Shown: positions 7,394-14,676 of the stretch, in pieces
Layout of the letters: the number at the start of each line of letters is the position of its first letter
Position numbering within the stretch: the stretch's first letter is position 1
Assembly: GCA_012515825.1 (NCBI GenBank)
Contig: JAAYXQ010000027.1
Location: 1 to 36,344 of the forward strand
DNA from: Fibrobacter sp.
GTDB taxonomy: Bacteria; Fibrobacterota; Fibrobacteria; Fibrobacterales; Fibrobacteraceae
Reading direction: 5' to 3'
DNA: 36,344 nt
Program-made: the position numbers and the translations under genes
Notes under the pieces: model-generated
Told to the model about the DNA's origin: nothing
Databases searched by the model: none
The model's input: only the letters and a program-made list of their open reading frames with translations

Positions 7394-8251
7394 ATGAATA
7401 CTCCATTTTACATTTTTATGCTTTTGCTTCCTAAAAGCCTTGTTTCGCAAGTGTTTGGAATTTTTACTCGTTTGCGTCTCCCTGGGATTAGTGCTAAAGC
7501 GCGGGATTGGTTTGCTTCTCATTACCAGTTGAATGAGGAAGAATCAGAAAAGCCTTTTTCTGAATACCCAAACATTGCCACTCTTTTTATTCGTCATTTA
7601 AAAAAAGGTGCTCGTCCAATTGATCCTTCTGCAGAAGTCGTTAGCCCTGTCGATGGCGTTCTTTCTCAGACGGGTGTTTTTGACAACAATTCTCAAGAGA
7701 TGATTCAAGCTAAAGGAAAAAACTATGATTTAGCCTCTCTTTTGCGAAGTGAAGAAATGGCCAAAGATTTTGAAGGTGGTTTTTGGGCTACTATTTATTT
7801 AGCTCCTTTTAATTACCACCGAATTCATACACCTGTTTCTGGTTCTATCGTTTCTGCTCATTACTGCCCTGGGCGATTGTGGCCAGTGAATCTAGGAAGT
7901 GTAGAACGAGTTGAAGGTTTGTTCGCTATTAATGAACGATTAACGACAAGAATCAAAATGGCCGATGGGGCTGAAATGCTAGTTGTTAAAGTGGGAGCTA
8001 CAAACGTAGGGCGAATTGCCTTAAGTTATAAGGAAGATTGGATTACGAATTCTTCAAAACTCACACGTCAAAATCCTCGCTTAGATTGGTTTGCGACTTC
8101 TCCTATTGCTATAGAAAAGGGTTCTGAAATGGCTCGTTTCGAGATGGGAAGTACTGTGATTTTAATCGGGAATAAAAAATTAAGAGATCGTCAGCCAGAT
8201 CTATTTAAATCAAAATTAAATCAAGCGGTTCAAGTGGGTCAGAGTTTATAA
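7394..8251 (+). CDS. psd: Phosphatidylserine decarboxylase
   Basis: Converts phosphatidylserine to phosphatidylethanolamine at the inner membrane using a self-generated pyruvoyl group. The 285-residue proenzyme has the conserved SPVDG (Asp87), the YHRIH motif (His142 and His145) and the cleavage site MGST, where cleavage between Gly252 and Ser253 gives the small alpha chain with an N-terminal pyruvoyl residue. The Asp-His-Ser arrangement matches the E. coli enzyme (D90/H147/S254). The N-terminus (FYIFMLLLPKSLVSQVFG) is hydrophobic and membrane-associating, in line with the length of proteobacterial-type Psd. Its TAA overlaps the next ATG by one base (TAATG), suggesting translational coupling to the iron-sulfur-loop protein. 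Confidence 0.96.
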   Translation: MNTPFYIFMLLLPKSLVSQVFGIFTRLRLPGISAKARDWFASHYQLNEEESEKPFSEYPNIATLFIRHLKKGARPIDPSAEVVSPVDGVLSQTGVFDNNSQEMIQAKGKNYDLASLLRSEEMAKDFEGGFWATIYLAPFNYHRIHTPVSGSIVSAHYCPGRLWPVNLGSVERVEGLFAINERLTTRIKMADGAEMLVVKVGATNVGRIALSYKEDWITNSSKLTRQNPRLDWFATSPIAIEKGSEMARFEMGSTVILIGNKKLRDRQPDLFKSKLNQAVQVGQSL

Positions 8252-9072
8252 TGTCTAAACAGGGATTACGCTTTGCTAGAGAAAATCCCCATATCGTTGA
8301 GGCTGCACGCTCTTTTATTTTAGAGTTTGATTCTGTACCAGACCCAGTTGTAAAAGTGGCTTCATTAGCGGAAGACGAAAACTCTCAAATCGCTTGGGTT
8401 TTACTTGGCAGTGTTATATTTCAAAACTTATCTTTTTTTCAAATGGCCTCAGTTTTAGAGGCTCTGTTTAATGCTTTTCCGAATAAAAAATTATGGGAAA
8501 CTCCTGTGCCTAAAGCTTCTGATATAAAAGCAGTAGTTCAAAAAGCATTAAAAAAAGAATCATGGGCTTTGTTAGATCATGCCCCAGGTATGTTTTGGAG
8601 TGTTGGCTTTTTTATCCGTCGCCATTTTCCCTTAAACATTTGGTTAACTTCGCGAAATGAAGCAGAAATATGGCGAGATCTCGGTGAAATATATTTTATG
8701 GGGAAAAAGAATATAAGGCCTAAAGTCATGTCTGCGATTCATCGATTAAAAAGTAATAGTCCATTAGGATTAGGTCTTACTATTCGAGAGGGAAAATCTA
8801 AGTTACCTTTTCCTATTTCAATGGGAAGCCGCCGTTTTATGGGGTTTATTGGTCCTGGAAAAGAGGACGATTTCGCAAACTGGACTCCAGAAAAAAAAAT
8901 AATAGAAGTGAACGATTTTTATAAAATACTATCTCCAATGGCGATAGATAAAGCAGCTCATGGGCTAAGTTTTTTTCTTGAACCAGGAGAAAAAGATTTT
9001 CTTTGTCGTGAACAGATAAAGTCTTGTGAAAAATGTCCTCTTTATAGTGAATGCTCTTATGGGAGGCCTTAG
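8251..9072 (+). CDS. Divergent endonuclease III-like protein with [4Fe-4S] cluster loop
   Basis: A 273-residue helical protein. Its C-terminus carries Cys252, Cys259, Cys262 and Cys268, the exact C-x6-C-x2-C-x5-C spacing of the iron-sulfur cluster loop in endonuclease III and MutY, followed by only five residues. Upstream is a helical region whose order resembles an HhH-GPD glycosylase: an early IAWVLLGSVIFQNL helix, FPNKKLWE, a GFIGPGKED turn near 198-206 and an Asp at 222 (EVNDFYK) where Nth has its catalytic VDTH. The match outside the cysteines is weak and the HhH motif is not canonical. It may be a base-excision DNA glycosylase of an unnamed branch or a non-catalytic relative. It overlaps psd by one base. 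Confidence 0.6.
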   Translation: MSKQGLRFARENPHIVEAARSFILEFDSVPDPVVKVASLAEDENSQIAWVLLGSVIFQNLSFFQMASVLEALFNAFPNKKLWETPVPKASDIKAVVQKALKKESWALLDHAPGMFWSVGFFIRRHFPLNIWLTSRNEAEIWRDLGEIYFMGKKNIRPKVMSAIHRLKSNSPLGLGLTIREGKSKLPFPISMGSRRFMGFIGPGKEDDFANWTPEKKIIEVNDFYKILSPMAIDKAAHGLSFFLEPGEKDFLCREQIKSCEKCPLYSECSYGRP

Positions 9073-9076
9073 TTTA

Positions 9077-9898
9077 ATGAATCGATTGGCTTTGATTAGC
9101 ATGGTGCTTTCTTTTATTATTGCGTGTTCTGATGAAGGCATTCCTTTACGTTCTGTTTCTTTTGATTCGATTGTCTATCAAAATCATAAACATGAATCAG
9201 CAAAATGGGTTAAACAAGATTCTTCAAAATGGCATTTGCTAGAAGAGATTCATTTACTGTATAAAATGGATTTAGATGACTCTCTATGGGTTTCTATTCT
9301 TGAATTTGAAAACGATGCCTTTGCTCTTGCTTATTACATTAATAGTGGGCGCTTTCAAGGGGCTCTTCCTGTTGTAAAAGGTCCTTTATTAGAACAGAGT
9401 ATTCGTTCGGGACGTTGGCTTTTTATTTTTAGACACAAACGTTTTTACCCTCATGATAGGCGCCTTTTAGAAGAATATGTACAACAGTTTCCAGGGTATC
9501 GTGGCGGGCTTCCTCAAGAATTTCTAAGTCTTCCTTTTGAAAATAGAGAGCCAGGGAAAACCTCTGTTCAGATCGATCTATTTCATGGAGAAAAAATCTC
9601 TTTTCCGATGTTTGTGCAGCGTTATCGAAACGCGGATGTCTATTGGAGTGTAGCGAGAAGCTTTGAATCAGTTGATAACGAAGATTGGCTTAAGTGGGTC
9701 GATTCTATTTCAAAAAAGAAAGAAAAGGTTTCTTATACAGAATCTATTCTAAAATTTGATAGTGGCCATGGAACTCGGGCTATGGCGACTCGGTTAGGTG
9801 GGGGACGAGTCGTTTGCGTATGGGGCCCGTTGGATTCAAAAAAGCTAGAAACCTTGTTTTTTGAAATTAGTGAACGAGTTTATTCAGCAAAATACTAA
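9077..9898 (+). CDS. Hypothetical lipoprotein
   Basis: I do not recognise the family with certainty. The track ORF starts at 9026 inside the previous gene. The ATG at 9077 is preferred because GGGAGG lies ten bases upstream and it gives a clean lipoprotein signal (MNRLALISM..., lipobox ending at Cys17, FIIAC). The 273-residue product has a mixed alpha/beta composition, including GRWLFIFRHKRF, a PGYRGGLPQEFL segment and a C-terminal helix. The pattern resembles small envelope proteins of the DUF6599 type, but this is only an impression. It lies 4 bases after the iron-sulfur-loop gene and is probably co-transcribed with it. Confidence 0.75.
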   Translation: MNRLALISMVLSFIIACSDEGIPLRSVSFDSIVYQNHKHESAKWVKQDSSKWHLLEEIHLLYKMDLDDSLWVSILEFENDAFALAYYINSGRFQGALPVVKGPLLEQSIRSGRWLFIFRHKRFYPHDRRLLEEYVQQFPGYRGGLPQEFLSLPFENREPGKTSVQIDLFHGEKISFPMFVQRYRNADVYWSVARSFESVDNEDWLKWVDSISKKKEKVSYTESILKFDSGHGTRAMATRLGGGRVVCVWGPLDSKKLETLFFEISERVYSAKY

Positions 9899-9928: not shown

Positions 9929-10258
9929 ATGGCTATAGAACAATTTGCAGATATCTTACTTGAAAAATTACGCTTTATATCTCAAGCGGAAACAGTAGTT
10001 GGAAAACCGATACAAGCAGGGGAGCATACCACGATTATTCCTGTAAGTCGAGTTTCTTTAGGCTTTGGATTAGGTGGCCATTCTGGAAAAGGTGATATCA
10101 CTGGATCTGGCGGAGGTGCTTCCGTTGAACCAGTCGCTTTTCTTGTCATTTCTGGAGAAGACGTTCGCATAGTGCCTGTTTCTCGAGACAATTCGATGCT
10201 TTCAAAGATCGTTGATCTTGTACCAGATGTTGTTTCAAGTTTTAAGAAGAATCCTTAA
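9929..10258 (+). CDS. GerW/YtfJ family protein
   Basis: A 109-residue protein with the signature of the GerW (Spore_YtfJ) family: GKPIQAGEHTTIIPVSRVSLGFG, a glycine-rich loop (GGHSGKGDITGSGGG) and then EPVAFLVI. The family was named for a Bacillus spore-germination protein but occurs in many non-sporulating bacteria, where its role is unknown. No signal peptide or membrane segment is seen. No Shine-Dalgarno precedes the ATG. The gene ends its transcription unit: a strong intrinsic terminator follows 65 bases downstream. Confidence 0.88.
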   Translation: MAIEQFADILLEKLRFISQAETVVGKPIQAGEHTTIIPVSRVSLGFGLGGHSGKGDITGSGGGASVEPVAFLVISGEDVRIVPVSRDNSMLSKIVDLVPDVVSSFKKNP

Positions 10259-12341: not shown

Positions 12342-14057
12342 TTACATTTGCCGAATAGGGAATAATCCTAAAAGATCTAAAACATTTTCAAGTACAATTT
12401 GAGTGGCTTGTACTAAATATAGTCTTGACTTTTCTTCTGCACTTCCAAGAACTCGATCTTGATGGATAAAACGATGAGCGGCTTCTGCTATTTCAAGAGC
12501 GTATTGCGCGAGTGTACTTGGCTCATCTGTTTCACAGGCTTTAGCAATATTATTACCCTTACGGCTTAATACTTTAATAAGCTCATAAGCTGCATCATCT
12601 GTTAGAGTATCCCAAGAGACATCCTCTATTTTAGCTGTATAAGCGGCTTTACGCATAATACTACAAAGTCTCACATGAGCATTCTGAACGTAAGGGCCTG
12701 TTGCTCCATCAAAACTTAAAGCCGAATCCCAATCAAATTTAACGTCCATTAATCTTCTGTTTTTTAGATCATTAAAGGTGAGAGCGCTGATTCCTATTTG
12801 AGTCGCGATTTCTTCTTTATTCTCTAGTTCAGGATTCTTTTCGTTAATAAAAGTAAGGATTTTTTCTTTAGCGGCCTCAATGACGTCGCGAAGTAAACTG
12901 GCGGTACCTGAACGTGTTTTTCCCTTTTCCCATTTCCCTTCTTCTGTTTGTTGTAGAATAACACCAAAAGGAATATGGTACATATCTTGATACCATTCGT
13001 AGTCCATCTTTTTTAAGACATGGAACACTTGCTTAAAATGAAGTGATTGTCCTAAATCGACAACATAAAGGCATTTCGAAAATTGGAATTCTTTTTTTCT
13101 ATAAAGAGCAGCAGCGAGATCTCGAGTCGCATATAAAGTACTTCCATCACTTTTACGAATTAAGCATGGAGGTAAATCAAAATCATTTAACATTACGACA
13201 TCGAGTTCTTGACTTTTCACGAGGAGCTTTTTCTCCCTTAATTCATCAAGGACTGCTGGGATTTTATCTTCAAAAAAAGATTCCCCTATATAGTGATCAA
13301 AAGAGACGCCCATCATGGAATAAATTCTCATGAGTTCTTTTAAGGTCGCCTTTTTGAATGCACTCCAGAGCTTTCTATAAAGAGAGTCGCCTTCTTCTAA
13401 CTTTGTAAAAGCGGCTCTAGCTTCATTTTCTAGTTCTGGATTTTCTTTACTAATTTTTGAAAAAGAGCTATATAGTAAGTTCAGTTCTTTTACCGTTAAT
13501 TGATCGAGGGCTTCTTCTTCTAAAGAACCACCTTCTCTTAAGTACATGACGATTAACTTACCAAAGGCAGTGCCCCAATCACCTAAATGATTGATGCGTT
13601 CTACCCGATAACCATTCGCCTTGTAAATGCGAGACAAGCTATTGCCTATCATGGTGGATCGAAGATGATGAAATGCTAATTCTTTTCCGATATTGGGAGA
13701 ACTAAAATCAATAATAACGGTTTTATTATTTGACGAAGCGTGGCCATAATTTAAACCTTTCTCTTCAATCTGAGTTAATACAGAGGTTGCTAAAAAAGAA
13801 CGTTCTATGAAAAAATTCAGATAACCATTAATAGGTTCCACTTTAGAAATTCCTTGCGGAAGTTCTATTTCTGTGGCGAGAGTCTCGGCTATGATCTTAG
13901 GTGCTTTACGCAACTTTTTAGCAAGAGCAAAACATGGCAAACTAAAATTACCATGAGTTGTTTCTTGCGGAACAGTTAGAAGTTGTAAAACCTCTTCTTC
14001 TAAAAAAGTACCCGTCTTTGCAACAGCTGCTGCAATGGATTGCTCAAATGAGATCAT
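12342..14057 (-). CDS. argS: Arginyl-tRNA synthetase
   Basis: Class I aminoacyl-tRNA synthetase charging tRNA-Arg in the cytosol. The 571-residue protein has the N-terminal additional domain (with GNFSLPCFALAKKLRK), the catalytic Rossmann fold (FSSPNIGKELAFHHLRST, NHLGDWGTAFGKL), the KTRSGT loop typical of ArgRS enzymes lacking KMSKS, and the anticodon-binding helical domain from about residue 455 (GPYVQNAHVRLCS). The HIGH motif reads AFHH at 128-131, where most ArgRS have HxGH or SxGH; the Gly-to-His change is unusual. Length fits the family. The start overlaps the end of rsfS by 14 bases, so translation is probably coupled. Confidence 0.95.
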   Translation of the reverse strand: MISFEQSIAAAVAKTGTFLEEEVLQLLTVPQETTHGNFSLPCFALAKKLRKAPKIIAETLATEIELPQGISKVEPINGYLNFFIERSFLATSVLTQIEEKGLNYGHASSNNKTVIIDFSSPNIGKELAFHHLRSTMIGNSLSRIYKANGYRVERINHLGDWGTAFGKLIVMYLREGGSLEEEALDQLTVKELNLLYSSFSKISKENPELENEARAAFTKLEEGDSLYRKLWSAFKKATLKELMRIYSMMGVSFDHYIGESFFEDKIPAVLDELREKKLLVKSQELDVVMLNDFDLPPCLIRKSDGSTLYATRDLAAALYRKKEFQFSKCLYVVDLGQSLHFKQVFHVLKKMDYEWYQDMYHIPFGVILQQTEEGKWEKGKTRSGTASLLRDVIEAAKEKILTFINEKNPELENKEEIATQIGISALTFNDLKNRRLMDVKFDWDSALSFDGATGPYVQNAHVRLCSIMRKAAYTAKIEDVSWDTLTDDAAYELIKVLSRKGNNIAKACETDEPSTLAQYALEIAEAAHRFIHQDRVLGSAEEKSRLYLVQATQIVLENVLDLLGLFPIRQM

Positions 14058-14676
14058 CTTCTATGTTAGCCTTTTTCTTTGTCGTCTTTTTAATAAAGTC
14101 TTTTTCTTGGAGGTTTTGAATATTGGCGTCGCTATAAAGACGATCCATCTGAATTTCCTCTCTCTTTGTTTCTTCAAAAAGATGAACCATCAATTCAAAA
14201 CCTGCATCGAATACAGCCCATTGAACGCCACTTTTATATTCAATTCCTTTAGTCTGAATTTTTTTGCTCTTAAATTCTTTGGTGAGCTCATTTAGAATGG
14301 CTTGCATCTGAGCTTCACTGGTGCATGTGGCAATTAAGAAATAGTCTGCGACGTCGTTTATACCACGAAGATCAATTAGTTGAACGTTTTCTGCACGTAA
14401 TTGAAACAAAGAAACCGCTGCTAAAGACACTGCTTCAGAAAGAGCTTCTTTCTTTTTAGCAGGTGTAGCCTTCACTGCCTTGACCGTCTTAACAGCCTTG
14501 GTGACTGTCTTTGTTGTAGCTACTTTTTTAGCTGGTGCTTTTTTGGAAGTTGCTTTTGGTGCAGCCTCTTTTTTTACCACCGTTTTTTTTGCTGCTTCTT
14601 TTTTAACAGTAGCCGTTTTCACGGGAGTGGTTGCTTTTTTTACACTTGGTTTTCGTGTAGATTTTTTTTCATTCAT
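14044..14676 (-). CDS. rsfS: Ribosomal silencing factor RsfS with Lys/Ala-rich N-terminal tail
   Basis: RsfS binds uL14 and blocks 30S-50S joining when nutrients run low. Residues ~80-185 form the family core: AAVSLFQLRAENVQLIDL, DVADYFLIATCTS, GVQWAVFDAGFELMVHLFEE and the LYSDA end. Ahead of it is a ~78-residue extension of Lys, Ala, Thr, Pro and Val with AAKK, PAKK and VKK repeats, resembling histone H1-type or ribosomal-protein tails. Typical RsfS proteins are about 105-130 residues, so this extension is extra. The C-terminus is also basic (FIKKTTKKK). The ATG overlaps the LytR_C gene stop by four bases (ATGA), and the 3' end overlaps argS. Confidence 0.9.
   Translation of the reverse strand: MNEKKSTRKPSVKKATTPVKTATVKKEAAKKTVVKKEAAPKATSKKAPAKKVATTKTVTKAVKTVKAVKATPAKKKEALSEAVSLAAVSLFQLRAENVQLIDLRGINDVADYFLIATCTSEAQMQAILNELTKEFKSKKIQTKGIEYKSGVQWAVFDAGFELMVHLFEETKREEIQMDRLYSDANIQNLQEKDFIKKTTKKKANIEDDLI

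Follow-up and report, generated by a model that had tools for sequence, protein, structure and literature searches.

Does the gene that follows psd in a Fibrobacter genome encode a DNA glycosylase, or a protein in which a glycosylase fold has been put to another use? The question arises from a 36,344-nucleotide stretch of Fibrobacter sp. contig JAAYXQ010000027.1 (the whole analysed stretch is referred to as the window), for which an earlier note had proposed, on the basis of a C-terminal cysteine pattern, that either the glycosylases have a further branch or their fold has been reused.

The cysteine motif and its specificity

The reading frame begins with ATG and encodes 273 amino acids; its start codon and the stop codon of psd overlap by one base at position 8251 (TAATG), in agreement with the proposed coupling of the two genes (feature coordinates are given in Table 1). 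The only cysteines of the protein (residues 252, 259, 262 and 268) form an exact C-x6-C-x2-C-x5-C motif at the C-terminus, just as the earlier note had described for an endonuclease III loop, and all four are nearly invariant in the family. The motif occurred in none of 200,000 shuffles of the window protein. When other ORFs of at least 50 amino acids from the fetched loci were searched, it was found in 13 of 5053, a comparison that bears on specificity rather than on background rate, as the set is enriched in glycosylase loci; all 13 ORFs can be identified as glycosylases of the Nth or MutY type, and all sit in loci fetched by the HhH-GPD model. As judged from cysteine spacing and conservation, the loop probably binds a [4Fe-4S] cluster of the endonuclease III type.

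Table 1. Positions in the window of the psd-linked gene, its proposed motifs and its neighbours
Feature	Position	Strand	Basis
psd, phosphatidylserine decarboxylase, upstream partner	7394..8251	+	PF02666, E = 8.7e-54; adjacency conserved across the class
Predicted HhH-GPD-fold protein with C-terminal four-cysteine loop, 273 aa	8251..9072	+	ORF, family search, model, Foldseek
Helix pair 43-56 and 62-75 with near-invariant Q58	8377..8475	+	Model helices, conservation
Putative helix-hairpin-helix: helix 137-144, loop E146-I-Y-F-M-G151-K152, helix 157-167	8659..8751	+	DSSP of the model; HhH assigned by inference
K158 codon, candidate catalytic (Schiff-base) lysine	8722..8724	+	Invariant in 59/59 members, spacing
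P188-I-S190-M-G-S-R-R195, putative counterpart of the P-V-D-T-H-x-x-R loop, Ser for Asp	8812..8835	+	Column 190; helix 191-199 follows
C252-x6-C259-x2-C262-x5-C268, probable [4Fe-4S] loop of endonuclease III type	9004..9054	+	Spacing, conservation
Downstream gene, lipoprotein-like N-terminus, often third in the cluster	9026..9898	+	ORF call, context

A single-copy family in the class Fibrobacteria

Homologues were detected in 34 of 41 genomes by protein search, and when 168 genomes from across the phylum were searched with a profile, 116 proved to carry the family, almost all of them in one copy. With the 168 genomes divided by kinship labels, the family was present in 116 of the 126 genomes of class Fibrobacteria as compared to none of the 42 genomes from elsewhere in the phylum. 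Named relatives belong to Fibrobacter succinogenes and other Fibrobacteria MAGs, and the viral contigs searched contained no relatives. The protein is thus not the orphan for which it had been taken; it represents a new family that is limited to class Fibrobacteria as far as searched, with the search beyond the phylum covering close relatives only. The long open frames of L130 and L131 were considered as fusions and rejected, as they run from one stop codon to the next in GC-rich DNA.

Searches of Pfam, NCBIfam and PDB sequences with the window protein gave no match. The HhH-GPD model PF00730 matched neither the window protein nor appeared among the families matching any of 27 members, and no HhH-GPD family was matched in sequence over the entire domain. 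Weak matches were obtained with the MutY model TIGR01084 (8 of the 27 members; best E = 0.0076) and with the endonuclease III Fe-S model PF10576 (2 of the 27), and the family weakly matched endonuclease III in the PDB (E of about 0.5).

Among 59 non-identical members, G113, G151 and K158 were invariant (59/59), while Q58, S117, M150, P188, R195, K216 and the four loop cysteines were near-invariant; K158 is retained even though identity to the window protein drops to about 21%. E146 is the sole well conserved acidic residue (E or D in 54/59). Conserved basic residues are K152, R156, K158, R195, K204 and K216, which, together with a pI of 9.1, would suit nucleic-acid binding.

Predicted fold

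An AlphaFold2 model built from the 27-member alignment was of high confidence (pLDDT 94.1, pTM 0.91) and nearly all helical. The top Foldseek match in the PDB was the queuosine salvage protein Qng1/DUF2419 (E = 0.022, prob 1.00), which superposed poorly (rmsd of about 8 or more; TM 0.45-0.51), followed by human MUTYH (prob 1.00, E = 0.07; rmsd 5.7 over the catalytic domain, TM 0.53), OGG1 (prob 0.93) and the archaeal 8-oxoguanine DNA glycosylase AGOG (prob 0.90); below these, matches were mostly noise. All PDB matches with a probability of at least 0.89 were either DNA glycosylases or the glycosylase-like Qng1. Among viral models, Halogranum tailed virus 1 supplied the best match, an endonuclease III (prob 1.00, E = 0.007, TM 0.56/0.62, rmsd 4.4). 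Model and Foldseek matches with probabilities of about 1 both indicate a two-domain all-helical fold with a helix-hairpin-helix, although E-values exceeded 0.001. As no Foldseek match reached an E-value of 0.001 (TM-scores of about 0.5-0.6), we based the superfamily assignment on the agreement among libraries, the cysteine loop and the weak family matches. Taken from the model, the 273-amino-acid protein very probably has an HhH-GPD glycosylase-type fold; the unrelated fold that the earlier note had named as the outcome speaking against its proposal did not turn up, the matches being of glycosylase type only.

Endonuclease III and MutY share with the family the predicted fold, the helix order and the exact C-terminal motif, whereas outside the loop the family is unrecognisable in sequence, its hairpin is longer and the catalytic Asp is replaced. 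Counting helices along the chain, the pair 43-56 and 62-75 corresponds to the Nth helix bearing Q41, and Geobacillus endonuclease III gave a weak profile alignment here. An hhalign match of segment 180-249 to Nth was dropped, as it lands on the Nth N-terminus and not on the equivalent part.

A conserved lysine and a missing aspartate

In HhH-GPD enzymes, the second hairpin helix opens with the Lys that is found in the bifunctional members (Nth, OGG1 and AGOG), and the Asp comes directly ahead of the following helix (K120 and D138 in Escherichia coli Nth). In the model (DSSP), helix 157-167 opens with P157-K158, and helix 191-199 comes after P188-I-S190; because of these places at helix starts, K158 is the candidate Lys, as in Nth, and S190 the presumed Asp position. 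Secondary structure and spacing of the model thus suggest the equivalence of K158 and S190 to the catalytic pair. A hairpin at P112-G113, by eye the most LPGVG-like site, was ruled out, as the model shows a single long helix there (108-125), much too distant from the Asp loop.

Column 190 contained T (33 members), S (12), A (7), G (3), P (1) and N (1), and never D or E. A search of the active site for Lys and Asp, which the earlier note had advised, therefore gave a divided answer, i.e., a Lys that is invariant at its inferred position and an Asp that is absent throughout the family. The motifs are non-canonical, as had been noted, with a longer hairpin and no Asp, yet one Lys is invariant. 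As the Asp is absent family-wide, glycosylase activity is not to be assumed; of the proposal of a new glycosylase branch or a reused fold, the structural part fits the predicted fold and the cysteine loop.

The spacing from Lys to the Asp position is 32 residues (K158 to S190), compared to 18 in Nth. AGOG retains the catalytic Asp and has the same spacing as the family (K142 to D174 in Pab-AGOG; PMC9638937). No Fe-S loop is known from AGOG. Sis-HhH-GPD of Saccharolobus islandicus, which likewise has a four-cysteine loop, carries Ser at the catalytic Asp position, remains active as the S152A mutant and excises 1-methyladenine; its essential residue is a Glu (E134) at the Lys position (PMC11754123). 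By analogy, a protein of this fold may stay active without the Asp; the parallel is inexact, since the family has Ser or Thr at the Asp position but an invariant Lys in place of Glu. Sis-HhH-GPD differs further in being archaeal and in being detected by ordinary homology.

Loss of the cysteine loop in one genus

The strict C-x6-C-x2-C-x5-C motif was found in 39 of the 59 members; in the others it was shifted, cut by a contig end, obscured by extra cysteines or, in genus g10, lost. In four g10 genomes (L020, L021, L133 and L134), the tail has been replaced and the four cysteines are gone, with K158 kept in all cases, whereas two others (L018 and L019) retain the cysteines. A frameshift was rejected as the cause, as the same kind of altered tail occurs in four genomes and no other frame bears the motif there. 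Since MutY proteins that lack the cluster have been described (PMC11078426), members of the HhH-GPD superfamily can do without it, and the four g10 genomes represent a natural experiment on the purpose of the iron-sulfur cluster. The cysteine loop was also altered in the Nth proteins of Fibrobacteria (L067-L070, L072-L075, L078, L079, L081 and L087), which depart from the canonical endonuclease III spacing (e.g., C-x9-C-x2-C-x4-C in the Nth of L068).

Comparison with DUF2400

Of the 42 genomes of the phylum that fall outside Fibrobacteria, 35 carry PF09674 (DUF2400), compared to 0 of the 126 within the class, and no genome among the 168 has both DUF2400 and the 273-amino-acid family. The family may occupy in Fibrobacteria the place of DUF2400 in the rest of the phylum; this exclusion involves two clades only and may reflect a single event in evolution. 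The DUF2400 model (pLDDT 94.9) matched MutY, OGG1, endonuclease III and Tag in Foldseek, and the DUF2400 proteins of the non-Fibrobacteria of the phylum (loci L096-L125) share an invariant K172 and, within a P-V-D-T-H loop, an invariant D206. DUF2400, which has no assigned function, thereby gains a predicted glycosylase-like fold and candidate catalytic residues.

The two families resemble each other in their glycosylase-matching models, helix order, a DP motif near the N-terminus and spacing (34 residues in DUF2400 and 32 here), and differ in that DUF2400 keeps both Lys and Asp and is without the four-cysteine loop. Profile alignment with hhalign gave about 197 collinear columns with E-values of 0.07-0.13, scores similar to those of unrelated controls, and placed the DUF2400 P-V-D-T-H loop on P-I-S-M-G of the family; the C-terminal part alone gave E = 0.0076, which is within the range reached by unrelated controls. 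As unrelated control families reached such scores, the claim of homology to DUF2400 was lowered to a hypothesis, and we consider the chances of a common origin with, or replacement of, DUF2400 to be about evenly balanced.

Possible activities

With middling confidence, and guided by the model, we take the family to be a new, divergent, Asp-less [4Fe-4S] branch of the HhH-GPD proteins that would use K158 to act on damaged DNA or AP sites. DNA would be bound in a cleft next to the hairpin, with a flipped-out lesion or abasic sugar held in place; K158 could then serve as the amine nucleophile at C1', either in an AP lyase or in a lysine-assisted glycosylase acting on an easily lost base, with the missing Asp replaced by E146 or by a water ordered by S/T190. 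Counting against this explanation, Fibrobacteria already have Nth and MutY type proteins.

The main rival to this favoured mechanism is that the protein binds DNA structures or lesions without catalysis, as a recruiter or regulator, with K158 merely contacting a phosphate. T, S, A, G, P or N at the Asp position of all members, the four g10 genomes that lost the cluster without losing the gene, and the presence of Nth and MutY for catalysis would all agree with such a role, which we nevertheless regard as possible rather than likely, because a lysine invariant in 59/59 members at identities down to about 21% is more typical of a chemical role and because Sis-HhH-GPD is active with Ser for Asp. 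A more specific form of K158-directed action, i.e., a lysine-only DNA-repair protein used across the class (e.g., an AP lyase or a covalent sensor of AP sites) that arose from or replaced DUF2400, itself then an unrecognised glycosylase family, is a rather doubtful proposal.

It is improbable that the protein is an N-glycosidase acting, like Qng1, on a small nucleoside or nucleotide or on a modified base rather than on damaged DNA. Qng1, the top PDB match, shows that the fold has been reused in this way, on a nucleotide or nucleoside, and the genomic partners are metabolic (psd, and in some genera TIM and SecG upstream), but Qng1 superposes worse than MUTYH or the viral endonuclease III and was not among the 50 matches listed for DUF2400. 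The endonuclease III type cysteine loop, moreover, belongs to DNA enzymes and is not known from Qng1. Finally, a chance resemblance between unrelated helical bundles, with the cysteines binding zinc, would accommodate the Foldseek E-values above 0.001 and the lack of a significant sequence match but is very improbable, as the exact Nth/MutY spacing, PDB matches of probability at least 0.89 to glycosylases or glycosylase-like proteins only and a viral endonuclease III as best viral match are hard to obtain by chance.

The family would add to the DNA glycosylase superfamily a branch missed by sequence models, fill an annotation gap for a whole bacterial class and offer a natural case in which to see how an HhH-GPD protein works once its Asp is gone.

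Gene neighbourhood

The earlier note had considered psd an odd partner. We found psd upstream on the same strand in every genus examined except g5 and g8, including the very divergent members L126-L132, and nearly always immediately adjacent, which identifies it as a conserved and not an accidental neighbour. In g5 and g8 (L141 and L144), the gene instead overlaps the end of a preceding Ppx/GppA phosphatase gene, with psd located elsewhere in the genome. As the link to psd is conserved broadly yet absent in these two genera, it appears to be old but not obligatory. Some genera have genes for triosephosphate isomerase and secG upstream of psd, and a lipoprotein-like gene is often found downstream of the family gene. 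We read this neighbourhood as an operon of housekeeping genes that gives no hint of function or of DNA repair.

In the window, the downstream lipoprotein-like gene had no match in Pfam or NCBIfam; an ATG at 9077 is more likely to be its start than the mechanically called start at 9026, which lies inside the glycosylase-fold gene. Just downstream of the psd operon, positions 9929-10258 (plus strand) encode a Spore_YtfJ family protein (PF09579), here in a Fibrobacteria genome. Further along the window, RsfS is encoded at 14044-14676 (minus strand). Its PF02410 match covers residues 89-180 and is preceded by an N-terminal extension of some 88 residues, which has a high content of Lys, Ala, Thr and Val and resembles a histone H1-like tail.
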